Of a stretch of 64,000 nucleotides of DNA, positions 22,743 through 62,544 are shown in pieces. Under the pieces are notes generated by a model. That model ran no database searches. It was given only the letters and a program-made list of their open reading frames with translations, and had not been told where the DNA came from. This DNA is from Erysipelotrichales bacterium (lineage in GTDB: Bacteria > Bacillota_I > Bacilli_A > Acholeplasmatales > WRBM01). Position 1 is the first letter of the stretch. The number at the start of each line of letters is the position of its first letter. The stretch covers positions 1-64,000 of the forward strand of contig WRBM01000003.1 of NCBI GenBank assembly GCA_009784525.1. Direction: 5' to 3'. The translations under genes and the position numbers were made by a program.

Positions 22743-22757
22743 ATTAATCACCTACAT

Positions 22758-24565: not shown

Positions 24566-24598
24566 GCCTCCGATAAAAATAAAAGCCCTAAGGCTGAT
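24566..24598 (-). terminator. weak hairpin after the kinase gene
   Basis: On the minus strand AGCC TTAG GGCT is followed by TTTTATTTTT, overlapping the kinase stop. The stem is only four base pairs, so partial termination at most. Confidence 0.3.
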
Positions 24599-28264: not shown

Positions 28265-28268
28265 AGAT

Positions 28269-35981: not shown

Positions 35982-36621
35982 TTTCTTCTCCCTTATTGAA
36001 TTCTTCATATATTAATTGATGTTTGTTCATTTTTAACTCACTAACTTTTAATACTATAAAACAATAGCCACCTACACCAATAATCAAAAATATCGGTAAA
36101 GCATAAATCAAAAGTAATATCACGCCAATAAGAATTATTAAAAGTAAAAGCGTATTCAAAATATTGCTTAAAGCGAAATAAAAACTAAAGACGACCTTTT
36201 GAGGACTGTTCATATCTGCAAGATAAATAAAACTTAGCGGTAAATAGATATAAATTAGAACGTATAATAAGGCAAAGAAAGCCATAGCATAAAATCCGAC
36301 ATTTTCCAGCCAGTTTGCATTATTTTCAATATAAAACCAAAGACTCAAGCCAATTAAAGCGGCAATCATCAGCATCACAATATTTAAAAAGCAACTTGCT
36401 TGAAAATTATCCCGGAACTTCTGGAAATAATAGCGCATAATCTTTAACTGCGGATTCTTTACTTCTTTTAAACAGTAAAAAGCGGCTACTAATGCCGGAA
36501 GCATTGCAATACCTAATGTAAAGACAGAAATAAAGATTGTCAGTAGATTAACAATAAATATTATATAAAGACTTTCACAAAATTCAAAAAACTTGGAACT
36601 TGTAAATTTTTCAAAATTCAA
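35974..36621 (-). CDS. DUF624 (YesL-like) membrane protein, first copy
   Basis: A 215-residue protein with about five membrane helices and the DUF624 pattern (FCESLYIIFIVNLLTIF, ALVAAFYCLKEVK). DUF624 proteins are often encoded with CUT1 sugar ABC transporters; the role is unknown. The start is TTG, preceded by GGAAGTGAT. It is the first gene of the muropeptide operon and a paralogue of the protein at 42686. Confidence 0.8.
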   Translation of the reverse strand: MNFEKFTSSKFFEFCESLYIIFIVNLLTIFISVFTLGIAMLPALVAAFYCLKEVKNPQLKIMRYYFQKFRDNFQASCFLNIVMLMIAALIGLSLWFYIENNANWLENVGFYAMAFFALLYVLIYIYLPLSFIYLADMNSPQKVVFSFYFALSNILNTLLLLIILIGVILLLIYALPIFLIIGVGGYCFIVLKVSELKMNKHQLIYEEFNKGEENE

Positions 36622-45366: not shown

Positions 45367-48150
45367 CTATGGCCTCACGTAAAAGCCTAGTGCTGGGACA
45401 TTAACCCCATCAACATTGCGCTGAGTACGTGTGAAGTTTAAAATTATTCTGACTCCATTGCTGTAGGTAACTTCAAAAATATTTTCTCTAGGTACTAAAA
45501 TACGATGGCTTGTTAAAGTCGCACCAGCAATACCAACATCTCTTAATCTTGCATTAAGTTCTGCAAGATGATCAACCCAATTGCTGTATGTCGCATGGAA
45601 AAATTGTGTGTATCTAGTTCTTAACAAAACTGAGGTATCTTCATAACTAAAGACAAATGAAGGATTACTTCCTGTATTTAATAAGTTTAGCATAATCCGG
45701 TCAATTCCTTCGGAAAGACTATGATTAAGTTCTGGTGTAGAATAAGCAAACAAATCAGAAACTACCAATTGAAAGAATGGAATACTCGTCTCAAAAACTT
45801 CTAATCTTGAAGCGTTCATTGGCACATTATAAGCAAAGCTAGCAAATGGCAACGCAAACTGAAGCGGATTATTAAGTTTTAAACTAAGCCCTGATTCAAC
45901 ATATTGTCTCATAAGGTTTTGTTGAGCTAATAATGCTTCTTGACGAGAAACTGGATTACTTCTGCTAAAATCACTGTTTAAGATGCTACCTAAATCAGAT
46001 AACTGGATGGCATTAAGACCTGTGATATTTTGATAACGATTAATCATGCGCGTTCCGAAATTATTGTAAAAACGCGGTGATAAGGTATGAATCGGCATTT
46101 GCGTATTGTCAAAAACACCGGTTGCTAAGTTATGTGGGAAATTAGTAGAAAAGTCCCAACTAAGAGCTCTGGAAGTATATTTTCTAACATCAAACATATT
46201 TCTGTAGCCATTATTTAATAATAAATTTGAACTCTTGGTAAATGGAATATCATTCTCTGCCAAAAAGGCTACAAAATTATCATAATCCCGACGGTTTCCT
46301 AAATGTCTGCTACGCGTAAAATGAATTGGATTCATTTCAATCAAGCCAGTATCTTTCCAACCAAAATAATTAACCGTAATATCTGTTATGCCCCGAGCAA
46401 TCAGCGTTTCCAAAATAAGTTGTGCTTGTTGGAAAGTCGTTAAGCTAGCATAATTACGACGTCCGATTCCTAAAAAGAAACTACGGAAATCATAGACACC
46501 TAAAAAGTTAATATCAAAAGTAATTCCATTTGAAACAGGAAGAGCAGTTGCTGGAAAGTCAAATCGGTTTATTAAATATGCCTGATAAGCCTTCGCCAGA
46601 CTAGAATAATCACTTTGATCTTCCGTTAAGAAGTGGTAAGCGATTGAAAAATCCGTATTAACTATATCCTGTTCAAATATTTCAACACTCATTGCATTCC
46701 AAGTCGTGCTTCCTATTCTAACATTATCACTTTGCCTAACGTAAAAGCCAAACCCCGCTCTGGTAACCGAAATTGTTCTATCTCGCTGACCAGCCTCAAT
46801 ATAGGCATGAGCATCTCCTTCTTCAAGAACCGCAAAGAAACTTAAATTGCTCTGAGGTCCTGAACCTTGTGTCCGATTAAAGATTTTAGCATACATCGGA
46901 AAATTGATACTTTCTTGCGGTTGTTCTCTTCTAACGAACTCTACGAAAGCATGATCACGACCATAAATTGGTTTGCGAAAATTTCTAAAGAAACCTGAAG
47001 ACTGAAAGTTCATTAATGCTCCGCTACCATCAGGAATCAAGATATGACCATCTTCACCATTTCTGGCAGCCCCAAAATATGGTAAAAAACGAATGCGCGC
47101 CAGCGGACTATTTTCATCTTCAACAATTGAATTTCTTAAAACAGATGCTTGTAAGCCATGATCAGTTAATACATATTCAACTGCAACTTTAAATCTTGGT
47201 CTTTCCATCGTTGTAGATTCACGATTCATTTGGCTATCATGATCTAATTCCCAATCGAACTCACCTTGATTATAACCAGCTTCCAAATAAAGAATTCTAT
47301 AAAGATGTTCCATGAAAATACTTTGCGCAAGAGCAGCATGACTTGACAATGTTAGCTCATAGTAACCCGGAAATTCAACAGATGGTGCATAAATTACCGT
47401 TCTTAAACGTAAAATGTTCATCGCAAATGTCGGACTGTTTGGATCAAGACGAGATACAATCTCATTCATCCGCTCTTCACTTATAAATTCTGGGAAATTC
47501 GTATAATGAAAACCACGAAATTGAATGTCATATAAAACCGTAATAGTTCTGTTTTCTGCATCTACCCGAAAATAATAACTTTTTTCACCAGGTCTACCTG
47601 TAGCATTATCATCTGGTCTTTGGATACTTAAAGAATAGGCATCTAACCAAACGATGCTTCCATGATTACCCACATGACCAAGAATTAAGGGCGATCTTAT
47701 CTCATTTTCGGTAGTTAATGAAGATGCTAAGTTATCGCCGTCCTCATTTTGCTGTGGATTGGAATACCAAACTTCACCAGTTATATTGTCAGTAATCCGA
47801 AAATGCGTTGTCACTTCGTTAAATTCCATCCGGAAACGCCCATTTGGCGAAGTCATGTTCGGGATAAATTTATTTGGGCTCTCGTGAGCATAAAAAGTAT
47901 CATGCTGAGCAACCCTAGCTCTTATTTGATCTGGAGTAAAACCACGATCATTACCATCAGCATCCGTGAGTCCAAGAATTTGATTTATACTTGTGAACCC
48001 ATCTGGATCAAAAGGGCGAGCGCTAATGCTTTCAAAGCCGCTTGCGTGAACAAAGACAAAATAATTAAGACTAAAGAAGCTAACAAAGATTAGCGTTAAG
48101 CCTAAAATTACTCTTTTTATCGTTAAATTTTCAAATATTTTTATTAACAT
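45367..48150 (-). CDS. DUF5696-type exported protein, glycosidase-like
   Basis: The 927-residue protein has an N-terminal hydrophobic signal or anchor (about 12-36), a beta-rich half (RFRMEFNEVTTHFRI, GEVWYSNPQQNEDG), and a C-terminal half from about 530 that reads like a TIM barrel (ITFDINFLGVYDF, ARGITDITVNYFGWKDTG). This matches DUF5696 as I recall it. The barrel-like part is suggestive of a glycoside hydrolase, but I cannot name catalytic residues. It lies between YIP1 and a permease pair, so it probably acts at the outer membrane face on the imported glycan. Confidence 0.65.
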   Translation of the reverse strand: MLIKIFENLTIKRVILGLTLIFVSFFSLNYFVFVHASGFESISARPFDPDGFTSINQILGLTDADGNDRGFTPDQIRARVAQHDTFYAHESPNKFIPNMTSPNGRFRMEFNEVTTHFRITDNITGEVWYSNPQQNEDGDNLASSLTTENEIRSPLILGHVGNHGSIVWLDAYSLSIQRPDDNATGRPGEKSYYFRVDAENRTITVLYDIQFRGFHYTNFPEFISEERMNEIVSRLDPNSPTFAMNILRLRTVIYAPSVEFPGYYELTLSSHAALAQSIFMEHLYRILYLEAGYNQGEFDWELDHDSQMNRESTTMERPRFKVAVEYVLTDHGLQASVLRNSIVEDENSPLARIRFLPYFGAARNGEDGHILIPDGSGALMNFQSSGFFRNFRKPIYGRDHAFVEFVRREQPQESINFPMYAKIFNRTQGSGPQSNLSFFAVLEEGDAHAYIEAGQRDRTISVTRAGFGFYVRQSDNVRIGSTTWNAMSVEIFEQDIVNTDFSIAYHFLTEDQSDYSSLAKAYQAYLINRFDFPATALPVSNGITFDINFLGVYDFRSFFLGIGRRNYASLTTFQQAQLILETLIARGITDITVNYFGWKDTGLIEMNPIHFTRSRHLGNRRDYDNFVAFLAENDIPFTKSSNLLLNNGYRNMFDVRKYTSRALSWDFSTNFPHNLATGVFDNTQMPIHTLSPRFYNNFGTRMINRYQNITGLNAIQLSDLGSILNSDFSRSNPVSRQEALLAQQNLMRQYVESGLSLKLNNPLQFALPFASFAYNVPMNASRLEVFETSIPFFQLVVSDLFAYSTPELNHSLSEGIDRIMLNLLNTGSNPSFVFSYEDTSVLLRTRYTQFFHATYSNWVDHLAELNARLRDVGIAGATLTSHRILVPRENIFEVTYSNGVRIILNFTRTQRNVDGVNVPALGFYVRP

Positions 48151-48160
48151 ATTATACCAC

Positions 48161-48844
48161 CTATGCTGTCCTAATCATTATTTCTCGAATTATCGTAAAG
48201 ACAAATCCATAAATCTGTTGTGAAAGACTAAAGATTGCCAAACAAAAAAACAAAATAACGATTAGTGCTATTATAGTAAAGATTAGAGAAAGTAATAATG
48301 TTCCTAAACCGAATTCGTGCACTACTAGTAAGCCCATTAATGCTAAATAAACCATTAATGTCGTGCCAGCAAAAGCGATTATATTCGCAAAACCTATTTC
48401 TTCAATTGTAATCATATGACTGAAAAAAGTGTTAAAGACAGTTGCTATCAATATCGGAAATTGGGCATAAGCTAAAACCATTAAGATTTCTTTTAACCGT
48501 CCCTTACCATTCATTAAAGTTGTAACGCTCCAGTTAGCAATAACGAAAAACAATATTGGAACTATCACAAAAAGTATTGACCAGATACTGTTAAAGCTTT
48601 CTGGATCAAAATCAACCACAATGAAAGATCCATGAAGAACAAACATCGCTTGCGAAAATCCGGCTAAAAGTAAAATTATCAAAGCAACACTAAGACTGCC
48701 TCGTTCACCATCTTTTAATTGGTTAAAGCCTTTTATCGGATGGGTTAACAAATAAATTGGAAATTTAATAAAATTTTCAACAAACTTTTGCCAAAGGTTT
48801 ATACTTTTAGTTTTGGCAACACGCCAATCAAGTCTTTTTTCCAT
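48161..48844 (-). CDS. YIP1-family membrane protein
   Basis: A 227-residue protein with a cytoplasmic N-terminal region (FPIYLLTHPIKGFNQLKDGERGS) and five helices, as in bacterial YIP1-like proteins. Its ATG overlaps the stop of the NHL gene by one base. No enzymatic role is known. Its constant association with the NHL and DUF5696 genes suggests a membrane scaffold. Confidence 0.75.
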   Translation of the reverse strand: MEKRLDWRVAKTKSINLWQKFVENFIKFPIYLLTHPIKGFNQLKDGERGSLSVALIILLLAGFSQAMFVLHGSFIVVDFDPESFNSIWSILFVIVPILFFVIANWSVTTLMNGKGRLKEILMVLAYAQFPILIATVFNTFFSHMITIEEIGFANIIAFAGTTLMVYLALMGLLVVHEFGLGTLLLSLIFTIIALIVILFFCLAIFSLSQQIYGFVFTIIREIMIRTA

Positions 48845-50529
48845 TAGTATTCACTTCCTTCATGGGATTTGAATTTTCCTTTTTTAACCCCACGATAAAT
48901 TAAAAATCCCGTTACAGCCGCAGCACCTACTAAGAAGATGCCCATTGCCGTATTAAAGTGACGATCAATAAATAAAAATCGCTGTTCATTTAAAGCTCTG
49001 GAATATCCTCGCCAATTATTACCAAGTCTAAAGTAGTGTCTGGCTTCAGCAAATCTTCCTTCATCCATCATAACACGGGCAATACCTGTATAAGCAATTT
49101 CAAAGTTACTATTACGCCTTATAACTTCACGCCATACTTCAGCTGCTTCTGTCATATTTCCAACACGTTCTAGTTGCGTAGCTTCTGTAACTAAGCGACC
49201 AAATTCAGTAAAACCAAAGGCAATTAAACTACTTGTTTGTCGATCGACAACTAAAAGCTGATCCTGAAAATAAACTACAGCAACAGGGTCACCGAAAGAA
49301 TCGGTTTGATTTCCCATTTGCCCAGTAATAAACAAAAGATTTCCTTCAAAGTCATAAGTAAATAGTCGCCCACGTCTAGTATCAAGAACTGTGTAATTAC
49401 CACGACCATCTAAAGTTATAGAACCAAATCTTGACGGACCGTAAATCAAATCAAAAACTCCAGCTGACAAAGAAAATTCTAAGTCACCTCTTGGCCGGGC
49501 GAAGCCGTTATTTCTAAGAACATCTACACCTGAAGGATTGATACTTTGGATTATATGATCATTTGTATGTCCTTGGGCAATAGGCATTGAAGTCGCCCAA
49601 AGAAAGTTTCTTTCGTCAATTGTCAAATTAATAAATTGTTGAGGCAAACGCAAAGAATCTCTACGAATTTGTTCCTCACTTTGAAAACGACGCCAAAATA
49701 TTTGTATTGGCGTTAAATGGACACGATTTGTACCAACAAAACGGGAAAACTCTCCTGCTTCATCAAATTCTAGAATTCCTTCAAAAACCATAAGTGCAAT
49801 TACATACATCCTATTTGTTGTATCAACAACAATTTTACTCGGTCTAAAAGCAACACCATCATCATCGGCATGTTGTCGAAAAGTTGGATCATTCGGTGTT
49901 CCAAAATAACCATATTCTGTAAAACTATCAGTTATTTCATCGTAAGTATAAACAAAATTTCCCTCTAAATCAAGTTTGATAATCCGATTATTTTCCGTAT
50001 CAGCAACAAATATATTGTTAGGAGTGATAAATAATCCTTGAGCTTGATTAAATGTATCACGCACTAAATCCATTCGCCGTTCTAACAATGGTTCTCCATT
50101 ACCATCAAGAATCACTTCACCATTGTTGTCAACTACTGGTTGTAAAGAAAAACGGGCTCCACCTGTCTCTGTAAGATATGGACGATAAAAGTGATCAATA
50201 ACTTTGACAAACTGAAGATTAGAGTCTAAGACGAAAATTCGGCTATTGTTATTTGTACTTATTGTTACACCTTGATCGTTTACCATTATAGTACGCTCAT
50301 CAAGTAAATAAAGATAATCACCGCCAACTCTTAAATCAGCAAGACGTCCGCTAAAACTATGATTTCCTGATGGGTCAATATTACGATCATAATAGTTATC
50401 AGAAAAAGCAAAGCCTTCAGCTGAATGAATCGGTCGACCCCAAGATGAATAAATATATGAATTGGCTCTGAGATTAGGAATCGTCAGCACACCAAAACAA
50501 CATATTGCTAAAAATATTAATTTTTTCAT
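48844..50529 (-). CDS. exported NHL-repeat/TPR protein with C-terminal anchor
   Basis: The 561-residue protein has a signal peptide (about 1-22), NHL beta-propeller repeats (GLFITPNNIFVADTENNRIIKLD is the clearest, near 165-190), a short TPR-like part (NFEIAYTGIARVMMDEGRFAEARHYF, about 470-500), and a C-terminal membrane helix (AMGIFLVGAAAVTGFLIY) with a basic tail. It should be anchored with the propeller outside. It may bind ligand or partners of the transporter. Ribosome site AGGAGG. Confidence 0.78.
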   Translation of the reverse strand: MKKLIFLAICCFGVLTIPNLRANSYIYSSWGRPIHSAEGFAFSDNYYDRNIDPSGNHSFSGRLADLRVGGDYLYLLDERTIMVNDQGVTISTNNNSRIFVLDSNLQFVKVIDHFYRPYLTETGGARFSLQPVVDNNGEVILDGNGEPLLERRMDLVRDTFNQAQGLFITPNNIFVADTENNRIIKLDLEGNFVYTYDEITDSFTEYGYFGTPNDPTFRQHADDDGVAFRPSKIVVDTTNRMYVIALMVFEGILEFDEAGEFSRFVGTNRVHLTPIQIFWRRFQSEEQIRRDSLRLPQQFINLTIDERNFLWATSMPIAQGHTNDHIIQSINPSGVDVLRNNGFARPRGDLEFSLSAGVFDLIYGPSRFGSITLDGRGNYTVLDTRRGRLFTYDFEGNLLFITGQMGNQTDSFGDPVAVVYFQDQLLVVDRQTSSLIAFGFTEFGRLVTEATQLERVGNMTEAAEVWREVIRRNSNFEIAYTGIARVMMDEGRFAEARHYFRLGNNWRGYSRALNEQRFLFIDRHFNTAMGIFLVGAAAVTGFLIYRGVKKGKFKSHEGSEY

Positions 50530-50541
50530 GCAGCTCTCCTC

Positions 50542-51504
50542 CTATTTCATTCCTGAATGACTCATCGTTTCAATTATCTTGCTTTGGGAAAAGACAAAGA
50601 TTGTAACTGGAACAATCATCATAATTAGCATTACGGCAGCACTGGCTCCTGCTCTTCCGACTCCACCAGCAACTATTAAGCTCAACGCGAAACTGACTGG
50701 CCTTAGTTCTTCGGAAAAGATAAACATCGCGCCATCGGCGGTCCATAATGACTGAAACAATAAAATAATTAATGTCAGCCACGCTGGTTTGACAAGTGGC
50801 ATAACAATGGTAAATAAAATTCTAAATTCGCTAGCCCCATCAATTTTAGCGGACTCAATTAGTTCAGTAGGAATTGTTACCATGAATTGTCGCATCAGAT
50901 AAAGTCCTAAAGAAGCCGCAAAAGCCGGTAAAATAAGGGCTAAAAGATTATCAAGTAAGCCAATTTGACTAAAGATAATGTATCTTGGAACCATTGTAAC
51001 CTGTGGCGCAAACATCAGAGAATAAACGACTAATGCGAAGAGAATCGTTTTTCCAGGAAAGCGATGTTTAGCCAAAGGGTAAGCTGCCATTGAGGCAAAT
51101 ACAACATGTCCGAATGTTCCTACAACCGTAATCAAAATCGTATTGAAGAAAAATCTGGAAAATGGCACCCAGGAGCCACCCATTAAACCAGCTAAATCAG
51201 TAAAGTTATTTAAGGTCGGCCTTCTAACAAACAAACGAGGCGGAAACATAAATAATTCATCTAACGGTTTAAATGCATTATTGATTGTAAATACTAGTGG
51301 GTAAATACTAAACAAAGCAAAACCAGCAAGCAATAAAAACATCGTGAGATCACCAGCAAATGATCTACTAAGTCTTTTGCGTTTATTTATCTTACGATTG
51401 TAAAGATAACGTTTTACAATTTTATTTGGCGTATTACGCGCAAAAAATGCCTTCGTTTTTTCACCAACACTTTTTTTCTCAGAAAGTGCTACTTCATCCA
51501 TCAT
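50542..51504 (-). CDS. carbohydrate ABC permease (MalG type), system 1
   Basis: The 320-residue permease has six helices and the EAA loop ELIESAKIDGASEFRILFTIVMP. It belongs to the CUT1 MalG branch. It follows the MalF-type gene by one base and pairs with it. A basic N-terminal tail (KIVKRYLYNRKINKRKRLSR) precedes the first helix. Confidence 0.9.
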   Translation of the reverse strand: MMDEVALSEKKSVGEKTKAFFARNTPNKIVKRYLYNRKINKRKRLSRSFAGDLTMFLLLAGFALFSIYPLVFTINNAFKPLDELFMFPPRLFVRRPTLNNFTDLAGLMGGSWVPFSRFFFNTILITVVGTFGHVVFASMAAYPLAKHRFPGKTILFALVVYSLMFAPQVTMVPRYIIFSQIGLLDNLLALILPAFAASLGLYLMRQFMVTIPTELIESAKIDGASEFRILFTIVMPLVKPAWLTLIILLFQSLWTADGAMFIFSEELRPVSFALSLIVAGGVGRAGASAAVMLIMMIVPVTIFVFSQSKIIETMSHSGMK

Positions 51505-51505: not shown

Positions 51506-52723
51506 TTAAGTTCCCACCCTTCTGATAATTTTTCTAACTAGAACGTTAGCTGAAATCATTAATATGAACAATAATGTCGCTATTGCACTAGCATAACCTA
51601 ATTCATAACGAATCGAACCAAAGTCAATCAAATGGGTAACTAAGGTATGTCCAGCATATTGAACTGACGGAAAACCGGCAATCTCCATGGCTACAGCAGC
51701 AATCGCAAAACTTGCTGTAATCTGCATAACCGCACCGAACATCAGCTGTGATTTCATTTGTGGTAAAGTAATATACCAAAGTTCTTGCCAGCGATTTTTA
51801 ATTCCATCAACTGCTCCTGCTTCATAAAGTGTTCTATCTGTTGATTGTAAGCCGGCAATGAAAGCAAGAAAGCTAATACCAAGGCTCAGCCATAACTGAA
51901 CAATGATGATAATTGGAATTATATAGGTCGGATCCTGAAGCCATAATCTTGGCTCTGAACCAAACCAACGCATCATAAATGCATTTGCAAAACCAACCTC
52001 ATCAGAAGCAAATATTAATCGCCAAATCAAAAAGGTATTACCAGAAATTGATGGCGCATAAAAGACAAGAGTCATAATTGAACGCATGCGCGGCTTTAAT
52101 TCATTAATCAACCAAGCAAATACGAAAGCCATTATATAGCTTACAGGACCAGTAATCAAAGCAAGTACCAAAGTGTTTCTAACTGCTCTTAGAAATACCT
52201 GATCGGTTAAGAATAAAGCCCGATAGTTTCCAAAACCAATAAATCTTGGCGCCTGTAATAAGTCGAAACTCGTAAAACTAAGTGCCAAAGCCATGAAAAC
52301 TGGGAGGATAGTAAAAACGAAAAACAAGATAAAAAACGGAGCAATCAAAGCATAGGAACTACGCTTTTGATATATTTCTTTTCTTGTATGACCGCCACTG
52401 TTACTCCATTTTTCAATTCGTTGTCCAAGTGATATACGGCGTTTAAGAATTGATACCTGACGACGTAAATCCATCATTCTATCAGTAACTTCTGATAAGT
52501 TTTGAGCATTCTCTTCGCTAGGATTCTGCTTTTTAAGTTTGCGCTTTTGCAGATAATCATTATAAACTGCTTTATATTCTGCTTTTAAAGGTTCAAGCTC
52601 TTCAATAGTTTGTGCTTTAATAACTTTATAATCAGCTTTTTCCTGTTGACGATCTGCTTTTCTTTTGGCTTTTAAAGCAGATTTCTCTTCTTTTGTTAAT
52701 TTTATTTTATCTTTTCTCATCAT
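51506..52723 (-). CDS. sugar ABC permease (MalF type) with long charged N terminus
   Basis: A 405-residue permease. The last 290 residues hold six helices and the EAA loop TLYEAGAVDGIKNRWQELWYITLP. The first 115 residues are very rich in Lys, Glu and Arg (LTKEEKSALKAKRKADRQQE) and likely form a cytoplasmic coiled coil, which MalF-type permeases normally lack. It overlaps the binding-protein gene by 4 bases. Confidence 0.9.
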   Translation of the reverse strand: MMRKDKIKLTKEEKSALKAKRKADRQQEKADYKVIKAQTIEELEPLKAEYKAVYNDYLQKRKLKKQNPSEENAQNLSEVTDRMMDLRRQVSILKRRISLGQRIEKWSNSGGHTRKEIYQKRSSYALIAPFFILFFVFTILPVFMALALSFTSFDLLQAPRFIGFGNYRALFLTDQVFLRAVRNTLVLALITGPVSYIMAFVFAWLINELKPRMRSIMTLVFYAPSISGNTFLIWRLIFASDEVGFANAFMMRWFGSEPRLWLQDPTYIIPIIIIVQLWLSLGISFLAFIAGLQSTDRTLYEAGAVDGIKNRWQELWYITLPQMKSQLMFGAVMQITASFAIAAVAMEIAGFPSVQYAGHTLVTHLIDFGSIRYELGYASAIATLLFILMISANVLVRKIIRRVGT

Positions 52724-55674
52724 TGCATCCCAAAAATCGGTAAGCCGAATTCACGGCGTTTTCGATTAATCTCCATATTTATTACATTAACAAACTCTAA
52801 TAATGTTTCACGCTCGTTCCAACGATCGTTAATAATGTGACGGAAAGCATTCTCTAAAGCACGTTGCGTCATATAACCACCCGGTGTATTCTGCTTAGCT
52901 TGAGTATTTCTTTGCTGCGAACGTAAAGCTTCTAGTTCTCTCACCGTCCAAGGCAATTGTTCCATCGCATAGATATTTGCCGTATGCCAGCGAGCCGCTG
53001 AACCAATAACTGCTTCCATTTCACGACCATATCTTACTTGCGTTTGTGTTGAAGACCACCATTGTAAAAATTCCCAACAAGCATCTTGATCTCTAGCTGT
53101 TCTAAGCATCATCGCTCCTGAATTAACAGCGTGAGAGGTATTATTAATTACTTGTTGTCCATTATTATCTAAAACTGGATTTCCATTATCATCAACTACA
53201 GGCGTTCCCGGAATCGGGTGAAAACCCCATTTGCCGCGCAACTCTGGTGCAAAAACACTAAGAACGTTAAACGTAGTATAAAATGATACGCCAATTGGCA
53301 TCTGTCCCGTTCTAAAACGCTGAACAAAATCAACTGCCAACGGAAAACTGAAAGATGTATAAAAGTTTGTCCACTGTTCAAAAGCCGTAATAGCTCTGTG
53401 GCTATCTAAACCGCTTCTGACGCTACCATCAGGTTCAGTTATATAAAATTGTCCCCCATTTTGAAATAGCAAGGAAGAGAAAGTCGCATTTAATGACGAA
53501 TCACCAACAGTATTAACTGGTAGAAAAAATTGCAAACTTAGCCTGTCAAGCCTAGGAACCAGTTCGATAACTTCCATCCAAGTAGTCGGAATCGGCCAAC
53601 CATGGTCCTCAAAAATATCTTCACGGACAAATAACATTAAAAAGTTTTGAGTTTCCGGAACCGCATAAACGTTATTATGCAATTCAAACGGTGTCCAAGC
53701 ACTCGGCTCAAAAAGCGTTTGGTGCTCTGCAAAACCAGGAAAGCCACTAAGATCCTGGACAGCGTTTCGCAAGGCAAAATCATTGACGGTAAATCCATCT
53801 ACCCCAAGCGCAACATCGGGACCGCGTCCAGATAAAGTAGCTGGCAATAATACTCCGGCATTAACGAGTTGCATATTGACGGTAATGCCTGTATTAGGTG
53901 TAAAATCTTCATCAATCAGTTGTCTTAAAACGTTCGCCTGATCGCGACCAGATTGAATCCATACATTTATTTCTCGATCACCCTCTACTTGACCCGGCAT
54001 ACCGCCGATTGCGTTAAAATCAGTAAAGAATGATGTAAAGAATCTAGCAACTGAAAACCACATATTACGAAAGATATTGGCATTCGCTCTTGGTAAAGAA
54101 ACATCATCACCAAACAAAGCAATATAATCAATTGTTAATGGCAATTCGCGTGCTAATAACAAAATCGTTCCTAATGAAGCAATATTATCATTAAATGCTC
54201 TAAGTCTAGCTGGTATCTGACTAGGTCTATCGATAAAAATACCTAGTTGTCTTGACATTGAATCTGCAGTAGCAGTAATAGCGCTTCTTTCCCCAGAATG
54301 AGCTTCAAATTGCTGACTAATGAAGTCTAGGCTCGCTTGTGCTGCTCTAAGTCTTTCTTCTAAATCAGGAATATTACGACCGCCAAGGAAATAGTCCCGA
54401 AACGGGTCTGGGCGAGTTCCAGTTACTCTGATAACATCACGATAGATACCATTTAAATCGTTTATGGTATCTTCCAATTGCCTAATTAACAATCCAAAAT
54501 CACCAAAAGTGACCTCTAAAGTAATAGTATGTACTCCTGGCTCAAGCCAAATACGGTGGTTATAATTTTCAGTACCAAAAGTTACATTTTGCCAACGACT
54601 ACTGTGTCTGAAACGAAAGTTATTCATTTCTGAAAACAACTGCTCACCGTTAATTAAGATTCTACGGCTAGAAAACATGCCTCGAACTTCGTTTTGTCGC
54701 GCTCTAACCGCAAGATTATAAAAACCAGGTTGATTAACTGTAAACTCCCAAGTTATCCAGTCACCAGGAATTCGCCAGTTATTACCACCAATAGCATTTA
54801 GTCTTGCTACTCTAGTTGAATTCGGGTAAGTAATCGGACTAGAGCGATCGGTAATTGGAAATAATGTCGGACTAGAACGTAGCGTAGCGTGCTGTCCTTC
54901 GATGCGGATAAACTCATTAGCGCTAAGGCTTTCTCTTCCAACATGTTGCTCACGATATTCAGCATAACTGATTAATACTTCATAAGGCTGGATTAAAATC
55001 CTTCTAATTTCCATAGGTTCTCTTAAGGAACGGAAAGCAATTTCTTGCATTGTTCCATCAAAGAAAAACATGTAAGGTTCAGCAATATAACCTAAATCAT
55101 CTCGAAGCGCTGATGTCCGCCATTCTGGTCTTTCAACTTGCGAAGGTCTTCTGTCGTTTCCAAGCGCATCAACTTGAAATTCGTCATTTATGTTTCCCCA
55201 TACTCTTTGAAAAACTAAATTATTAGCTTCTGTAAAAGGCGCTTGCCCATCAATCAGAAAAGCCCGCTCAATCGGCGAACTTCTTCCAGCTGTTGGAAAA
55301 TACTCAATAATAACATTATATAAACCTGGTTGAAGCATCAGTCCAGGCATATTATTAATCTGCCAAGCCACTAAACCTTGCTCACCAGTAATTACTGAAC
55401 TTTGATTAGAATCAACTTGTGGCGCATCGCCTTCAAAACGGCTGAAGTCAATACCGCGCAGTTCAATCCCTGCACTTGGCCTTGCTAAATTCATACCCTG
55501 AAAGTGTTCTAGATATGCCAAATAACCTTGACGGGCATTACGAACTTGTTGTGTACGCTCAAAAGCCTGATGTTCATCAGGTTCTGAAAAAGAGGCATGT
55601 AAATCATTATCGCTCATCATACCTAAAAGGCATAATATTGGTAAAATCAAACAAATAATTTTCTTCATCATCAT
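52720..55674 (-). CDS. giant solute-binding protein with N-terminal beta domains
   Basis: The 984-residue protein starts with a signal sequence (about 1-27) without a lipobox. Residues about 90-420 look like two carbohydrate-binding jelly-roll units (WITWEFTVNQPGFYNLAVRARQN and GVHTITLEVTFGDFG). From about 565 a family 1 solute-binding domain follows (INVWIQSGRDQANVLRQLIDE, GPDVALGVDG, WEFLQWWSSTQTQVRYGREME). Typical binding proteins are about 420 residues. It probably feeds the two permeases encoded next. Fused binding modules would fit a polymeric ligand. Confidence 0.82.
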   Translation of the reverse strand: MMMKKIICLILPILCLLGMMSDNDLHASFSEPDEHQAFERTQQVRNARQGYLAYLEHFQGMNLARPSAGIELRGIDFSRFEGDAPQVDSNQSSVITGEQGLVAWQINNMPGLMLQPGLYNVIIEYFPTAGRSSPIERAFLIDGQAPFTEANNLVFQRVWGNINDEFQVDALGNDRRPSQVERPEWRTSALRDDLGYIAEPYMFFFDGTMQEIAFRSLREPMEIRRILIQPYEVLISYAEYREQHVGRESLSANEFIRIEGQHATLRSSPTLFPITDRSSPITYPNSTRVARLNAIGGNNWRIPGDWITWEFTVNQPGFYNLAVRARQNEVRGMFSSRRILINGEQLFSEMNNFRFRHSSRWQNVTFGTENYNHRIWLEPGVHTITLEVTFGDFGLLIRQLEDTINDLNGIYRDVIRVTGTRPDPFRDYFLGGRNIPDLEERLRAAQASLDFISQQFEAHSGERSAITATADSMSRQLGIFIDRPSQIPARLRAFNDNIASLGTILLLARELPLTIDYIALFGDDVSLPRANANIFRNMWFSVARFFTSFFTDFNAIGGMPGQVEGDREINVWIQSGRDQANVLRQLIDEDFTPNTGITVNMQLVNAGVLLPATLSGRGPDVALGVDGFTVNDFALRNAVQDLSGFPGFAEHQTLFEPSAWTPFELHNNVYAVPETQNFLMLFVREDIFEDHGWPIPTTWMEVIELVPRLDRLSLQFFLPVNTVGDSSLNATFSSLLFQNGGQFYITEPDGSVRSGLDSHRAITAFEQWTNFYTSFSFPLAVDFVQRFRTGQMPIGVSFYTTFNVLSVFAPELRGKWGFHPIPGTPVVDDNGNPVLDNNGQQVINNTSHAVNSGAMMLRTARDQDACWEFLQWWSSTQTQVRYGREMEAVIGSAARWHTANIYAMEQLPWTVRELEALRSQQRNTQAKQNTPGGYMTQRALENAFRHIINDRWNERETLLEFVNVINMEINRKRREFGLPIFGMQ

Positions 55675-55679: not shown

Positions 55680-57803
55680 CTATCTAAGCTGCCGGAAAAT
55701 CATATTTTCCAATATTGATGCTAAATCACGTGCAGCGTTTTCTTCTGCTACCCTAAAGTATCGACTTCTGGATTCTACAGTTTGGTGATTATTTGTGGTC
55801 GTTAAGCGGAAATAAGCAATTTGCCCCCGAGTCCAAGGTAGAACATTCCAAGTAAACTCATACCTTCCTGTTTGCTGGTTATAAACTGGAGAACCAACAA
55901 TAACTTGACTACGGCCATCAATAAACAACTCTAAAGTGAAATTAAGCGGATCACCTAATACATCATAAGGTGCCGCAAAGCTTACTATTACTTGTGTCCC
56001 TCCATAAGCATATCCTCTGATTAAGCCCTCAAGATCTAAGGTTTCAGGCACTTGCGGCGGTTGCGACTCAGCAATATTAGTTATCGCTAAAGCTGTTGCG
56101 CTTTCACGATTTTGAAAATCAATAACTCTAAGATAAAAATCATAATTCTTGTAGTTTCTAACCGATAAGTCCCTGACAGTCAGATTTCCTGCCCCCATAC
56201 CTCTGATAGCTCCCATAAAATGACCAGGATTATCAAAATTAACTGGTGTTCCTTTAGGAGTTTTGTAAATCACATAATAAAACACATTATCGCAAGTTTC
56301 ATTGATTCTGAAACGCAAATTGTCACCTCGGCTTTGAACCTCTATGTTGCTCGCGCTAGGCAAAACCGCCAGATTAGTATTGGTAGACATAGCTCTAGAT
56401 GACATAGGCCTTTTTTGCCAGGCATTCCTTAAATGTTCAACCGCGGCTCTAGTTGATGCCCTATTTGACCAAAAATTCCGTAAAGAGAAAATCGTAAAAC
56501 CGTTAACCTCTGGAAATTGACTATTATAAAGCAACTGATCCGCCATTTCGGTAACAGGAGCAACCCATGGTGCTGTATCATCAAAACGATAAAGTCCAGC
56601 TGAAATATTAAGTTGCACATAATGACCATTCGCTCTTGCTTGTCTAACAACATCGACCCACCAGTCAACAAGATCAGCATAAGGATTAGCATGATGTCTA
56701 ATTGGCCAATAAAGTTGTGGCGAAACATAGTCAAGCCAACCTTCTAAAACCCATTTACGGATATCCGCATATAAGTGGGTATATGATTCAAAACCACCTT
56801 GAACATTTGTCCCTTGCGGATGTCTTGACCTTGCTGCCCAAACACCTGCCGGAGAAACTCCAAAACGCACGCCGTTTCTACGACCGCTGTTTTCATTAAA
56901 TTCACCGATAGCTTCTGCTACTTCACGAATCATTTTATCAACATTTGCCCGGCGCCAGTCAGCTTGACCTAACCCTGTTGGCAACCCTAAAGGATTATTA
57001 GCACGATATAAGTCAAAACTTTGTCTGTCAATATCCATAGGCATGCTTTGAAGATAGAAATAATCATCGAAATTAATCCCATCAACATCATAATTTTCCA
57101 CAATTTCCATTACTGTATCAACAATATGATCAATAACTGCCCGGCAAGCTGGATTCAAAATCATTGAACTATTTCGGCGTAACCAAGTTGGAATTCCAGT
57201 TTCAGGATCATTTGGCACTCTTCTAGTAAAGTGTCTTGCTGGCAAACTATTGATAAAATCCTGCGTACTCGCTGGAGCTGAATTTGTGATACGATAAGGA
57301 TTTAACCAAGCATGAAATTCCATTCCTCTAGCTCGAGTTGCTTGAACCGCAAACTCAAGTGGATCAAAATTTGCCAAATCACTGTCAGTCATTCCTAAAA
57401 ACTGGCTGACTGGGTTATGCACACTTGGATAAAAAGCACAAAGCATTGAACGCACTTGAAAAAAGACCGTATTCATGTTAAATTCCTCAAAGATATCCAA
57501 TACTCTTTCGTATTCAGCCATAAACTGTTCCGGAGTTCTTGTCTGCGGAAAATCAATATTAAATACTGTAGTTACCCAAACAGCCCTTGTCTCAAGCGGA
57601 CGTTCAAAATAAACATCGGGCACTTGAACAATAGCTCCTTCATTAGGTCCAGAACCAGATGTCCAGCGTCTTACAAATTGTCCGTCTTGTCGCCAATTAA
57701 TAAGATTAAAAAAGCCTTCACTATTAACTTCTTTAGTTGTGACCGAAGATATTAGACATAATATCGCAATCGCTGCACAAAAAGTTACAATTACTTTTTT
57801 CAT
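55680..57803 (-). CDS. secreted GHL10-family glycosidase (YngK/DigH-like)
   Basis: The 707-residue protein has a signal peptide (about 1-29, no lipobox), a GHL10 (DUF187) TIM barrel (about 70-400) and a C-terminal part with beta-sandwich domains. Hallmarks are RAVWVTTVFNIDFPQ, FQVRSMLCAFYPS, EFHAWLNPYRITNSAP, GINFDDYFYL and VSPQLYWPIRHH. E. coli DigH (YddW), of this family, cuts peptide-free peptidoglycan glycan. The Asp pair in FDDYFY is the likely acidic site. A shorter, leaderless paralogue precedes it, overlapping by 4 bases. Confidence 0.87.
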   Translation of the reverse strand: MKKVIVTFCAAIAILCLISSVTTKEVNSEGFFNLINWRQDGQFVRRWTSGSGPNEGAIVQVPDVYFERPLETRAVWVTTVFNIDFPQTRTPEQFMAEYERVLDIFEEFNMNTVFFQVRSMLCAFYPSVHNPVSQFLGMTDSDLANFDPLEFAVQATRARGMEFHAWLNPYRITNSAPASTQDFINSLPARHFTRRVPNDPETGIPTWLRRNSSMILNPACRAVIDHIVDTVMEIVENYDVDGINFDDYFYLQSMPMDIDRQSFDLYRANNPLGLPTGLGQADWRRANVDKMIREVAEAIGEFNENSGRRNGVRFGVSPAGVWAARSRHPQGTNVQGGFESYTHLYADIRKWVLEGWLDYVSPQLYWPIRHHANPYADLVDWWVDVVRQARANGHYVQLNISAGLYRFDDTAPWVAPVTEMADQLLYNSQFPEVNGFTIFSLRNFWSNRASTRAAVEHLRNAWQKRPMSSRAMSTNTNLAVLPSASNIEVQSRGDNLRFRINETCDNVFYYVIYKTPKGTPVNFDNPGHFMGAIRGMGAGNLTVRDLSVRNYKNYDFYLRVIDFQNRESATALAITNIAESQPPQVPETLDLEGLIRGYAYGGTQVIVSFAAPYDVLGDPLNFTLELFIDGRSQVIVGSPVYNQQTGRYEFTWNVLPWTRGQIAYFRLTTTNNHQTVESRSRYFRVAEENAARDLASILENMIFRQLR

Positions 57804-59116
57804 TCTTCCAACTCCTTAAATTTTGGCATTAAAGCCTTTTTTGACCACATTTTTTTTATTATTTCTAGTCCCTCGCGCGCAAAATCATTTTCTGGAAATA
57901 GATTACTGAAACTCCATAAGCAGACTCCATCTACATTTGAAAATTTATTCAAATATTTGATCATGTCAGGAAAGACATCTTTCGAGCTGTAGCCAGGAGT
58001 AGCGCCATAGCGCCCTATCGAAAGACCGATAAAAAGTTTAACACCTGTTCCTTTACAAGCTTCGCTCCACCAATCGACTAAATCAGCGTAACGAGCAACA
58101 GCATGTTCAAATTCCCAATATAGTTGTGGCATAATATAATCGAGATAATTATTGTCAATCCACTTCTTCAAATCAGCATACCAAGTAACATAAGCCTCTG
58201 AACCCAAAGTTTCAGAACCTCCATTAATTCTGCCGTTTTTATAAATACCAAACGGACTGATTCCAAAAGCAATTTTCGTCTTATTCTTTCGATTAAAAGC
58301 CGTTATATTTTCTCTGATTGATTTAATTAAAGCTGTAACACATTCTCTTCTGAAATCAGCTAGACTTTGCTTAGTCGTTGAATTCTGATATTCTAAAGTA
58401 TCATCAGCTTCTGGATGCAGCCCTTCACTTGGATAAAAATAATCATCGAAATGAAGCCCATCAATAAGCGGATAATTTTGGCATATTTCCATTAGTGTAT
58501 TAACAATAAAATCCCGAACCGCTTTCTTTGCAGGATTTAAAATCAACATCCCATTATTACTTATGACAACATTATCCGGATTTTTTTTAACATAATTCAT
58601 CGAATGCATCTTTTGGATTTCCGTTGCTTTCAATTCTTCAATCTGCTTTTTATGAAGAGTCGGTGCTAAACGATTAAGAGCGCTACTTGCCCGATAAGGG
58701 TTAAGCCAGCCATGAAACTGAATGTTTCTAAGGTGACATTCCTTAATCATAAATTCCAGACAGTCAAAAGGCGGTTTTTTGCCTTCCTGAAACGCTCCTT
58801 CGCCTCCCATAAGAAATCGGGAATAAGGATTCAGTTCTGAACGATAAAATGCATCATTCATTGGTCTTATTTGAAAAAACAAACAATTTAAGTTGAATTC
58901 CTCCATTTTCGCTAAAATGGCTATAAATTCATTTTTAAAACTCTCTGCATCTTTAAAACGACTAAAATTAATATTACTGACTGTTGCTACCCAGACAGCT
59001 CTTAATTCTGTTTGCTTAGCTTCGTAATGTTTCGGAATCATGACAACTTCATCCGATTTAAAATATTTTATCGTATCACTAGAATCGATAAAACTCTTTA
59101 ATTTGGTCAACTCCAT
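57800..59116 (-). CDS. cytoplasmic GHL10-family glycosidase
   Basis: The 438-residue protein has only the GHL10 barrel: RAVWVATVSNINFSRF, FFQIRPMNDAFYRS, FHGWLNPYRASS, GLHFDDYFYPSEG, IMPQLYWEFEHA. It has no signal peptide or extra domains. It is thus a probable intracellular partner of the secreted enzyme, acting on imported oligosaccharides. It overlaps the PIG-L gene by one base and the secreted GHL10 gene by 4. Confidence 0.85.
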   Translation of the reverse strand: MELTKLKSFIDSSDTIKYFKSDEVVMIPKHYEAKQTELRAVWVATVSNINFSRFKDAESFKNEFIAILAKMEEFNLNCLFFQIRPMNDAFYRSELNPYSRFLMGGEGAFQEGKKPPFDCLEFMIKECHLRNIQFHGWLNPYRASSALNRLAPTLHKKQIEELKATEIQKMHSMNYVKKNPDNVVISNNGMLILNPAKKAVRDFIVNTLMEICQNYPLIDGLHFDDYFYPSEGLHPEADDTLEYQNSTTKQSLADFRRECVTALIKSIRENITAFNRKNKTKIAFGISPFGIYKNGRINGGSETLGSEAYVTWYADLKKWIDNNYLDYIMPQLYWEFEHAVARYADLVDWWSEACKGTGVKLFIGLSIGRYGATPGYSSKDVFPDMIKYLNKFSNVDGVCLWSFSNLFPENDFAREGLEIIKKMWSKKALMPKFKELEE

Positions 59117-59811
59117 TAAAAATCAGTCCTAACAACTTTTTTCTGATAATCGACAATATTAAAAGCTTGAGCATATTGCTTTCTGGCAAGACAACCATTT
59201 GCTTTTATAATCGAAGTATAATAATCATAATATTTAAACGATGAGCTATTCATAATGAACCAATGCTTTTCAATTGCACTTTTCCATAACTGATAACCTT
59301 CTTCTGATACTTCATAATAAATGTAAGGAGAAAAATCTTCTCTGTCTTCCCAATTTTCACAAAGATAAACAGGTGCATAATGCGTTTGACCTTTGACTTT
59401 ATCGCCGATATCAACACCAGCATAAAACTGAGCATCATTAACGATTAAAAAAGTATTAGCGTGATCTTTATGCATTGAATTTTTCCAATGCGTGAAAACT
59501 GCTTGCGGCTTATAATCACGAATTAGCTGAGCAACGCGATATTTTATTTCTTCAGATGGCAACAATTCCCCATCCTTAGTTTCAAATACTATTGCTTCAC
59601 CACCAAGCATTTCCGCAAAAATCTTAGCTTCATTAACTTTCTGAACTCGATATTCATCTTGGGTCATGTGCTTAGGATTACCTCGTTCTCCGGCAGTTAG
59701 AGCAACCGTTACGATTTTATAACCTTTTTTGGCATGTGTCGCTAAAACACCTCCACAAGTTAATTCCATGTCACCGATATGAGCGCCAATTGCTAATAAT
59801 ACCTTTTGCAT
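59116..59811 (-). CDS. PIG-L/LmbE-family protein with altered active site
   Basis: The 231-residue cytoplasmic protein follows the PIG-L deacetylase fold: AHIGDMELTCGGVLATH at the start, TAGERGNP, and FTHWKNSMHKDH. The family's H-P-D-D motif reads H-I-G-D: the metal His and second Asp remain, but the first Asp, the catalytic base in MshB, is Gly. HKDH supplies the other metal site. The family removes N-acetyl groups from GlcNAc derivatives. Activity here is uncertain. It lies between a GNAT gene and the GHL10 pair. Confidence 0.82.
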   Translation of the reverse strand: MQKVLLAIGAHIGDMELTCGGVLATHAKKGYKIVTVALTAGERGNPKHMTQDEYRVQKVNEAKIFAEMLGGEAIVFETKDGELLPSEEIKYRVAQLIRDYKPQAVFTHWKNSMHKDHANTFLIVNDAQFYAGVDIGDKVKGQTHYAPVYLCENWEDREDFSPYIYYEVSEEGYQLWKSAIEKHWFIMNSSSFKYYDYYTSIIKANGCLARKQYAQAFNIVDYQKKVVRTDF

Positions 59812-59812
59812 A

Positions 59813-60796
59813 CTATTTCAGATCCTTTTTCATAATGGCAAATGATTGAACAATCTTAAAGCCAGCCGATAAATAAATGTTGCGAGCTATGTTATTTAAT
59901 CCCGTAAAAAACGTCATAAATTCGCTGTTATTCTCTTTTGATTTTGCACAAAGCACTGAAAATAATGTTTTTCCAATACCTTTACCATTATAAGTTTCTA
60001 AAACTGCGATACCAGCTAAAGAGGCACGATTATTACCTTCATTCCAAACTGGTCCAGTAAAGGCAATAACTTTACCATTATCGTGAGCAATTAATAAAGG
60101 ACGAGGGTTTTGTGCATTTTGATTATTCCTAATTGCATTTGCAAAAGGCGGATTATTTACCTCAACACAGAAATCTTCAAGCCCATGGTGTTTCTTCGGA
60201 TCATAAATTTCAATGCCGATTCCTTGTTTTTCGTTTCTTTCGATAACCGCTTTATTTTTCTCTGACATTTCAAATTTTGTAAGATCCAAATGAAAAGCAT
60301 CAACTTGCCCCTCAACATTATAACCAGAGGAAAGATAAAGAAAATATTCTGAACTATTATATGGGACAGCTGGTGCACCAGGATGATTATGCATATTCGT
60401 ATTAGGCACATACCATTCCAGATTAATTGCTCCTAAAAAAACCATTCTGGAACTTTTGCGCCCAAGAGCTTTAAAAAATTCCTCAACTTTTTGAATCAAC
60501 TGTGTTCCTAAGCCTTTTCTTCTGTAAGTTTCTTTTACTAAAACAAAAGTTACATAACCTGGTGCAGTTTCGTTTTCTAAATCGGCTTTCTTGACTATTC
60601 CTAAAGACATCCCGACAAGTTTTTTTCCGTCATAGGCCACAAAGAACCCCTCCGAGCGAAAATTTTCATTTTTCAGGAACTTGATAGTAAACTCTTCTTC
60701 TGTAAATGGTTTATAGAATTTTTTTACATTGACGACTTCGTTCCATAATTTCACGCAATCTGCAAGCATGTGATTTTCAAAGTTTTGGAATTTCAT
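59813..60796 (-). CDS. tandem GNAT acetyltransferase
   Basis: The 327-residue protein has two GNAT domains. The first has the acetyl-CoA loop ETYRRKGLGTQLIQKVEEFF (about 100-120) and the second NGKGIGKTLFSVLC near 280. Substrate is unknown. Its neighbour, a PIG-L deacetylase-like gene 2 bases downstream, makes amino-sugar acetylation a plausible theme, but this is inference. Ribosome site AGGAGAA. Confidence 0.82.
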   Translation of the reverse strand: MKFQNFENHMLADCVKLWNEVVNVKKFYKPFTEEEFTIKFLKNENFRSEGFFVAYDGKKLVGMSLGIVKKADLENETAPGYVTFVLVKETYRRKGLGTQLIQKVEEFFKALGRKSSRMVFLGAINLEWYVPNTNMHNHPGAPAVPYNSSEYFLYLSSGYNVEGQVDAFHLDLTKFEMSEKNKAVIERNEKQGIGIEIYDPKKHHGLEDFCVEVNNPPFANAIRNNQNAQNPRPLLIAHDNGKVIAFTGPVWNEGNNRASLAGIAVLETYNGKGIGKTLFSVLCAKSKENNSEFMTFFTGLNNIARNIYLSAGFKIVQSFAIMKKDLK

Positions 60797-60831: not shown

Positions 60832-62544
60832 TTATCGTTCTCTTCCCATATAGACATAATGATTTCTAATTGTTGTTGTGCCCATAAAGTTAATTATTAC
60901 TCTAAATTCAAATCTTACAACAATAAATGTATGGCGGTCCCAATAGAATACGCCATGAGCACCTTGATAAATGCCCACAGGCAATTCATCAAACTCGTAT
61001 TCAACTTCTAAGCCTAAAGCAACTAGCTCTAACATTTTATGTTCATTCATAATCATTCCTAAGAACTCAGCCCATCTGCCAGTTCTTAAAATAATATCTG
61101 GGCAATGTCTACCACTAAAATATTGGTGCGAACGGACAGACGATAACGGAAGATTATGTTTTTGCAATAAGTATGCAACTAATTTTGCATACATCCTTAA
61201 AGCTCCTTCAAAATTACCATCAGCGTTAATAGCCATTTCAATTCCGATAGCCCACTGATTTCCAAAATGTTCACCAGCATGATTTGCTCGATAATTATCG
61301 GGAATATGTTGAAATATTTCATGCTCATCGACTGTATAGTGCCACGATATTGCTCTATCGTCGGTATTAATGACATTATTCCAGAAAGCAGCATTCGTCC
61401 CTGTAGTGCTGACGCCTGTTTCATGAATTGTAATCCATAAAACATTGCTATCATTTGGCGCTACATCAAAGCCTGCTCTTGCTAAAGCCGCTGGCGAAGG
61501 TGTTACCCTTCTTCCTGGAACTTTGCGGTTGTTCTCTAAAGGAATCATACCATCTTGAATAACTAACGGTTCACCCGTAATCATATTTACAGCCCGATAA
61601 CTTTGATAATCTGTCAAAACAATGTCCATAAAATCTAAAGCGAAATCTTCAATCTCTTCTTCTTGCAAAACAATACTTGTATAAGCAAACGTTAGCCTTA
61701 CAAGCGCTGTTCCAATACGAATTTCTGCTGAAAGCACAGTCGTAGCTTGAGTAAAAGTTTTTGATAAACGTCCAGAAAGGCTAACAATGCCGCCAAAAGA
61801 GTCAGTCCAGACAATATTTGATTCGAACAGTTCATCAGTTACCGGCAATTGAAAGACAGTATTGAAGTCCGCATTTTCAAGATATTCAAGTAACCAAGTC
61901 CGAACCATAGCAGCTTTTTCCGGATCCGTAATTCCTAAAATCGTTATTGAAACATCAAATCCTCTTCTAACGCCTTCATGTTCAATTATCGCCATCATTT
62001 CAACCGGGACGTCATATAAGTGAGTAATTAGAACTTCACCTTGATTAGTTACAACATTCGGACTTAAAGAAACCCATGATACAGTCACATTCGGAAAGAC
62101 AGCTATACTTTCAGGTAAAACCAACTGATTCGTTCTTTGCCGATCACGAACACTAAAATTTAATACATCAAAAACTGTCTGTAAAAAGAAAAGTTCGCTG
62201 GCATTAGGTTGAACTAAAACATGGTGAGTTGCAGAATGAGTTTCTCCAGCAAAATTTATATGGCTAGTCAATATCACAGGGCTTTCGGTTGTAACGACGC
62301 TTACAACTCCAGAACTAGTCATTATGTCATAATTACTACTTTCCCAAACAATTGATGCATCAAAGCCAGGAACGTAAGTAGGCAAGAATAAATCACCTTT
62401 GGTTGTTTCAGTAACTGAGGCATTGACAATTTCTTCGAGTCTTTGCAAATCCGTTAATTCAGCTGTTGTTTTGTTATCACCATTACAAGCAACTAAGACA
62501 AATAAAAAAACGATTAAAATACTATACTTCCAATATTTGATCAA
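60832..62544 (-). CDS. lipoprotein N-acetylmuramoyl-L-alanine amidase, second copy
   Basis: The 570-residue product has a lipobox L-V-A-C (Cys at 20), three atypical Ig-like beta units (IVWESSNYDIMTSSGVV, VTVSWVSLSPNVVTNQGEV, SNIVWTDSFGGIVSLSG) and an Amidase_2 domain (about 365-520) with WITIHETGV, ISWHYTVDE, RANHAGEHFG and SGRHCPD. It should strip stem peptides from peptidoglycan at the cell surface. The start is TTG, seven bases after GGAGG. It is the first gene of the transporter operon and resembles the amidase at 11592. Confidence 0.88.
   Translation of the reverse strand: MIKYWKYSILIVFLFVLVACNGDNKTTAELTDLQRLEEIVNASVTETTKGDLFLPTYVPGFDASIVWESSNYDIMTSSGVVSVVTTESPVILTSHINFAGETHSATHHVLVQPNASELFFLQTVFDVLNFSVRDRQRTNQLVLPESIAVFPNVTVSWVSLSPNVVTNQGEVLITHLYDVPVEMMAIIEHEGVRRGFDVSITILGITDPEKAAMVRTWLLEYLENADFNTVFQLPVTDELFESNIVWTDSFGGIVSLSGRLSKTFTQATTVLSAEIRIGTALVRLTFAYTSIVLQEEEIEDFALDFMDIVLTDYQSYRAVNMITGEPLVIQDGMIPLENNRKVPGRRVTPSPAALARAGFDVAPNDSNVLWITIHETGVSTTGTNAAFWNNVINTDDRAISWHYTVDEHEIFQHIPDNYRANHAGEHFGNQWAIGIEMAINADGNFEGALRMYAKLVAYLLQKHNLPLSSVRSHQYFSGRHCPDIILRTGRWAEFLGMIMNEHKMLELVALGLEVEYEFDELPVGIYQGAHGVFYWDRHTFIVVRFEFRVIINFMGTTTIRNHYVYMGRER

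Follow-up and report, generated by a model that had tools for sequence, protein, structure and literature searches.

All lytic transglycosylases known to us work on the outer side of the cytoplasmic membrane, the side on which the sacculus lies. They produce 1,6-anhydroMurNAc, the substrate of the kinase AnmK. A further reference point is the Bacillus-type MurNAc cluster, which comprises NamZ, NagZ, a beta-lactamase-fold protein, MurQ and MurR. Within the GHL10 family, Cwp19 of Clostridioides difficile is a proven lytic transglycosylase that forms 1,6-anhydro products together with some reducing ends (PMC6016235). It is the only solved and the closest characterised GHL10 relative of the enzymes described here. 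DigH, which the initial annotation had used as the yardstick, is slightly more distant, and the comparison is better drawn with Cwp19 and its solved structure. DigH is reported to be a hydrolase of denuded glycan, not a lytic enzyme, and acts in cell separation. The family may be broader, since maltose release from starch has been reported for DogH, a GHL10 protein of Deinococcus.

We analysed a stretch of DNA of 64,000 nucleotides (the window) in which two GHL10 genes lie side by side. This pair probably does the central glycan cutting in a pathway of peptidoglycan scavenging that is split by the membrane. The features that bear on this reading are as follows:

60832..62544, minus strand: secreted lipoprotein with aBig_2 and Amidase_2 (N-acetylmuramoyl-L-alanine amidase), which would denude glycan strands (Pfam, hydropathy)
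59813..60796, minus strand: double GNAT acetyltransferase, conserved operon partner
59116..59811, minus strand: PIG-L type deacetylase, conserved operon partner
57800..59116, minus strand: short GHL10, 438 aa, without signal peptide, predicted cytoplasmic (Pfam, hydropathy)
55680..57803, minus strand: long GHL10, 707 aa, with signal peptide and C-terminal extension, predicted secreted (Pfam, hydropathy)
52720..55674, minus strand: 984-aa secreted protein with a C-terminal solute-binding domain (ABC importer)
51506..52723, minus strand: ABC permease A1
50542..51504, minus strand: ABC permease A2
48844..50529, minus strand: secreted NHL/TPR protein, conserved 3' of permease A2
48161..48844, minus strand: Yip1 membrane protein, after the NHL/TPR gene
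45367..48150, minus strand: secreted DUF5696 protein adjoining a second permease pair
34836..36008, minus strand: NamZ exo-N-acetylmuramidase, without signal peptide
33239..34816, minus strand: GH3 beta-N-acetylhexosaminidase (NagZ-type), without signal peptide (NF003740, over cut-off)
32328..33242, minus strand: BadF/BadG-type sugar kinase
31204..32331, minus strand: AnmK, anhydro-N-acetylmuramic acid kinase (NCBIfam equivalog NF007148, 424.8 against a cut-off of 387)
30265..31176, minus strand: MurQ, MurNAc-6-phosphate etherase (TIGR00274, 344.1 against a cut-off of 302)
26879..30250, minus strand: EtfB, EtfA and GlcD-type FAD oxidase, predicted D-lactate dehydrogenase
25574..26857, minus strand: GH4 glycosidase
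24588..25577, minus strand: second BadF-type kinase
21705..22751, minus strand: MupG 6-phospho-N-acetylmuramidase
11592..13169, plus strand: second secreted aBig_2/Amidase_2 lipoprotein

The initial annotation had described two adjacent GHL10 paralogues with common barrel motifs, only the longer of which carries a signal peptide and an extra region, and both observations were confirmed. The two minus-strand reading frames match PF02638 (GHL10) with 167.6 and 181.4 bits, far over the cut-off of 27.9, and their products are 34% identical over about 425 aa. Signal peptides were called from a simple 12-residue hydropathy peak rather than a trained predictor; by this measure the N-terminus of the long protein, MKKVIVTFCAAIAILCLISS, peaks at 2.98 and is a clear signal peptide, whereas the short protein contains no signal-peptide-like stretch, its peak of 1.18 being reached only at residue 39. 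The long protein continues for approximately 240 residues beyond the barrel in a region that is beta-rich in a low-confidence model and that gave no Pfam match. A search of NCBIfam returned no name for either GHL10.

The start codon of the short gene is well supported: it and the PIG-L stop codon overlap (TAATG), and a Shine-Dalgarno-like AGGA precedes it. The short and the long gene in turn share 4 nt at their stop and start, with AAGGAG ahead of the overlap, so the three genes are closely packed. A wrongly placed start that hides a signal peptide was rejected as an explanation for the short form on account of the overlap with the upstream stop, and also since its relatives likewise lack a signal peptide.

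Both proteins are full GHL10 barrels that keep nearly all conserved active-site residues. The putative active site of Cwp19 was taken as 13 positions (W36, Q77, W127, R132, D195, D196, Y197, S250, Q295, Y297, G328, F367 and S368), 11 of which are kept in both window proteins; G328 is replaced by Ser in the long form and F367 by Trp in the short form. With these residues conserved in both, the possibility that one is a degenerate, inactive paralogue was rejected. The model of the short protein has a pLDDT of 90.3 and its best PDB match is Cwp19 (5OQ2, E 1.8e-37), and the barrel part of the long protein is modelled with confidence and matches the same entry (E 2.9e-33).

The separation into a short and a long form extends well beyond the window. 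In a tree of 138 GHL10 barrels, from which the short genes of families f9 and f19 were left out, the short protein clusters with 25 other signal-peptide-less GHL10s of the order (local support 0.98), in a clade that excludes the secreted barrels as well as Cwp19 and DigH. The two window proteins occupy separate positions in the tree, that of the short one being among the short forms of other families, on which grounds a recent local duplication was rejected. Among the loci fetched, 27 adjacent short/long pairs were found. Their hydropathy peaks do not overlap (short at most 1.49, long at least 2.47) once models that are truncated or fragmentary, and one long reading frame with a wrong start, are set aside. 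Outside these groups, nearly all GHL10 matches are secreted. The host genome holds four GHL10 genes, namely the pair in the window, one of 435 aa beside a GH20 gene on contig 8, and one on contig 31 with a signal peptide and an open frame of 799 aa.

Similar short-type genes occur in other families of the class, and in several f19 loci the short gene has no long neighbour; the internal enzyme, not the pair, is therefore the constant of the f9/f19-type operon. These comparisons support a predicted division into an external and an internal GHL10 that is conserved across the class, with the cytoplasmic enzyme as its constant member. The proposal in the initial annotation that the same bond type is cut both before and after import holds up in its external/internal split, which agrees with the short clade, the paired genes and a conserved sugar ABC importer, whereas the sameness of the bond is a hypothesis. 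The arrangement is not a local oddity. That the short GHL10 works in the cytoplasm is very probable.

The pair belongs to an operon-like run of genes on one strand, in the reading order Amidase_2 lipoprotein, double GNAT, PIG-L, short GHL10, long GHL10, solute-binding protein, two permeases, NHL/TPR, Yip1, DUF5696, two further permeases and DUF624. A second run begins approximately 6 kb further on with DUF624, NamZ, the NagZ-type GH3, a BadF kinase, AnmK and MurQ, and continues through EtfB, EtfA, the GlcD-type FAD oxidase, GH4, the second BadF kinase, DUF4097 and MupG. AnmK thus lies outside the operon of the pair, some 24 kb away. By hydropathy, NamZ, NagZ, AnmK and MurQ carry no signal peptide. 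Genome G004 has the same DUF5696/permease set, continuing there into NamZ, GH3, BadF and GHL10. Judged from sequence, the genes of the window are predicted to provide a nearly complete route from polymeric peptidoglycan glycan to GlcNAc-6-phosphate and D-lactate, and then to pyruvate.

In the loci of Acholeplasmataceae-type families, Etf/FAD oxidase genes are followed by an RpiR-type regulator, AnmK, GH4, the short and the long GHL10, a beta-lactamase-fold protein and a secreted amidase with Big_2 repeats, often with a solute-binding protein and permeases; the long GHL10 of these families mostly has two barrels and once three. The locus of Acholeplasma oculi ATCC 27350 (L071) contains the FAD oxidase, the regulator, AnmK, GH4, both GHL10s and the amidase. 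Families f9 and f19 repeat the order of the window (GNAT, PIG-L, GHL10s, solute-binding protein, permeases, NHL/TPR) and add a GH20 between the GHL10s and the solute-binding protein, often along with an LD-carboxypeptidase, an M19 dipeptidase and a DAP/Orn/Arg-decarboxylase-type enzyme. AnmK also has a GHL10 gene in its vicinity in Enterococcus ureasiticus, in Listeria grandensis and in several loci of Bacteroidetes.

This gene content bears on what the pair acts on. If the substrate were another glycan, from a host or an exopolysaccharide, the peptidoglycan genes nearby would be coincidental. The starch activity reported for the Deinococcus enzyme would fit such a role, and the PIG-L, GNAT, GH4 and GH9 partners have no obvious function in peptidoglycan metabolism. 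However, an amidase, AnmK, LD-carboxypeptidase, dipeptidase and RpiR regulator recur beside GHL10 genes in different families, and NamZ, MurQ and MupG are encoded within the same window, which makes this explanation very unlikely. The peptidoglycan context assumed in the initial annotation is borne out by the amidase, AnmK, MurQ, NamZ and NagZ, and we consider it highly likely that the pair acts on peptidoglycan-derived glycan. The secreted amidase of the operon would supply peptide-free glycan, the type of substrate used by DigH.

The distribution of AnmK gives an indication of the chemistry. In the order of the window organism, 24 of 61 genomes have a GHL10 over cut-off, including Acholeplasma oculi ATCC 27350 and several Acholeplasmataceae MAGs. 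AnmK is present in 23 genomes, every one a GHL10 carrier, and the sole carrier without it (G049) has a single, weaker GHL10 match. MurQ over cut-off closely follows this set; the exceptions are G039, with MurQ and no AnmK, and G021, where MurQ is split in two pieces. The three genera g5, g8 and g12 are each mixed, with AnmK and an over-cut-off GHL10 together in part of their members and both missing from others, which argues against mere shared ancestry. Across the class, AnmK was found in 53 of 56 genomes with a short-type gene as compared to 21 of 339 others (Fisher p ~1e-44, with related genomes counted and no correction for phylogeny). It is absent from the B. subtilis control.

A search limited to two lytic transglycosylase families, SLT and MltG, found neither in any of the 61 genomes, with controls positive. 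Together with the anhydro products of Cwp19 and the vicinity of GHL10 to AnmK in other bacteria, this makes GHL10 the leading candidate source of anhydroMurNAc. Both GHL10s may instead be plain hydrolases, of the muramidase or glucosaminidase type, with AnmK handling anhydro ends that were already made by the lytic transglycosylases of the donor. The denuded-specific hydrolysis described for DigH and the reducing ends among the products of Cwp19 are in line with this, and the BadF-type kinases of the window could act on free amino sugars. On the other hand, Cwp19 as the closest characterised relative yields 1,6-anhydro products, and the close association between AnmK and the short GHL10 across genomes, including their joint absence within genera, is not what this explanation would suggest. 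We regard it as plausible but rather doubtful. Such hydrolases would fit into the same two-compartment scavenging scheme, with only the chemistry being different. For at least one of the two enzymes, lytic, anhydro-forming chemistry is slightly favoured. The lytic or hydrolytic mode, the bond that is cut and the cytoplasmic location of the short form are predictions.

A further question is whose peptidoglycan is degraded. The genome of the window organism contains transpeptidases and MraY and is predicted to be walled, so the pathway could here also recycle the organism's own wall. Both GHL10s would then turn over the peptidoglycan of the organism itself: the long one would serve in cell separation, like DigH, and the short one in cytoplasmic recycling. 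Yet the pair persists together with AnmK and MurQ in families f4 and f5, which hold nearly all remaining short/long pairs of the order and gave no match to transpeptidase or MraY, whereas the walled f3 genomes lack AnmK and have no GHL10 over cut-off. The operon also includes a full sugar importer, and the window encodes D-lactate oxidation. Own-wall recycling as the function of the pair therefore appears unlikely. Most carriers of the order lack transpeptidase and MraY, the two gene families from which wall absence was deduced, and their substrate must therefore be a foreign wall. Of the 56 class genomes with a short-type gene, 37 have no transpeptidase at E 1e-10. Also for the window organism, scavenging is more likely than recycling of its own wall.

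From the observed gene content, gene order, conservation, clade structure, active-site conservation and signal-peptide contrast, we infer all substrates, products and locations of the scavenging pathway. Outside the cell, secreted Amidase_2 enzymes would remove stem peptides and the long GHL10 would shorten the denuded glycan to oligosaccharides of importable size. The solute-binding protein and permeases A1 and A2 would take these up, after which the short GHL10 would cut them again and NagZ, NamZ and related exo-enzymes would complete the trimming. As a lytic transglycosylase, GHL10 would generate anhydroMurNAc ends that AnmK may phosphorylate. MurNAc-6-phosphate would be converted by MurQ to GlcNAc-6-phosphate and D-lactate, and the D-lactate would be oxidised by EtfAB and the FAD oxidase. 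Taken as a whole, the reading that wall-less or wall-poor Bacilli have a dedicated pathway for eating foreign peptidoglycan glycan, in which a cytoplasmic lytic transglycosylase feeds anhydroMurNAc to AnmK, is a tentative one, for which we find the case nearly balanced.

Acholeplasma is wall-less, and the gene set offers a possible account of how wall-less bacteria that live freely can feed on dead ones. When 13C-labelled dead E. coli cells were added to pig slurry, Acholeplasma was the main assimilating population, an observation that so far had no known enzyme basis (PMC4628116). How they do so can be tested in a cultured species, since most of the locus is present in A. oculi ATCC 27350. 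A lytic internal GHL10 would bring into the cytoplasm an enzyme class otherwise thought of as wall-remodelling tools. The literature searched, which included few subscription journals, contains no description of a cytoplasmic GHL10 or of an AnmK/MurQ pathway for peptidoglycan sugars in wall-less Bacilli, and gave nothing on AnmK in Mollicutes, on Acholeplasma with anhydro-N-acetylmuramic, or on NamZ. One paper on how these orders lost their walls has no words starting with recycl, hydrolase or N-acetylmur. All parts are of known kinds; we provisionally consider their arrangement to be a new variant of peptidoglycan catabolism.

The locus resembles each of the described systems in part. With Cwp19 (PDB 5OQ2/5OQ3) the window enzymes share the barrel, their models giving a TM of ~0.9 on target length at 33-34% identity, but Cwp19 is an autolysin of the cell surface that carries CWB2 anchors; it is encoded by one gene, and no partner in the cytoplasm has been described. 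DigH (YddW) of Escherichia coli belongs to the same family, is 31-33% identical to the window enzymes and acts on denuded glycan; it differs in being described as a hydrolase and in being an outer-compartment protein of cell separation, placed elsewhere in the barrel tree. E. coli-type recycling by AnmK, MurQ and NagZ uses the same cytoplasmic enzymes and the same predicted intermediates, to which the window adds a sugar ABC importer beside the pair, a cytoplasmic GHL10 and D-lactate oxidation in the cluster; unlike that system, the window-type pathway is also present in wall-less lineages. As in the Bacillus-type MurNAc cluster, NamZ, GH3, MurQ and MupG occur in the window and an RpiR regulator and a beta-lactamase-fold protein in its relatives, whereas AnmK and the GHL10 pair are additional in the window.

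The short GHL10 gene adjoins genes for a PIG-L deacetylase and a double-GNAT protein (59116-60796 in the window), an arrangement that is conserved in several families. The substrate of these two proteins is perhaps an amino sugar produced by the pathway.

In the operon, permease A2 is followed by genes for a secreted NHL/TPR protein and a Yip1 membrane protein (together 48161-50529). The NHL/TPR protein has this position in other families as well, and in at least one of these it is likewise accompanied by a Yip1 protein. A second permease pair is adjoined by a secreted DUF5696 protein (45367-48150). This protein, too, may act on wall sugars, a hint that comes from one genome of the order (G004, locus L050), where the DUF5696 and permease set continues into NamZ, GH3, a BadF kinase and a GHL10 with a secretion signal.

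Relatives encode secreted GHL10 proteins with two or three barrels per chain:

L038, 5643-11564, multi-barrel secreted GHL10
L042, 5184-9212, multi-barrel secreted GHL10
L060, 6930-10151, multi-barrel secreted GHL10

Active-site residues are kept in nearly all of these barrels; the second barrel of L060 is an exception. A second GHL10 without a signal peptide is encoded on contig 8 of the same genome as the window, where it adjoins a GH20 and a GH9 enzyme (L055, 8747-14177 for the group), possibly forming a second internal glycan set.

Elsewhere in the window, a second secreted aBig_2/Amidase_2 lipoprotein lies on the opposite strand (11592-13169) and resembles that of the operon in plan, and the terminal gene of the MurNAc cluster encodes a beta-eliminating lyase of the tryptophanase/tyrosine phenol-lyase type (19520-20962).

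In two families of the class (f9 and f19; L181-L198), the operon holds an LD-carboxypeptidase, an M19 dipeptidase and a DAP/Orn/Arg-decarboxylase-type enzyme, which suggests that stem peptides are used there in addition to sugars.
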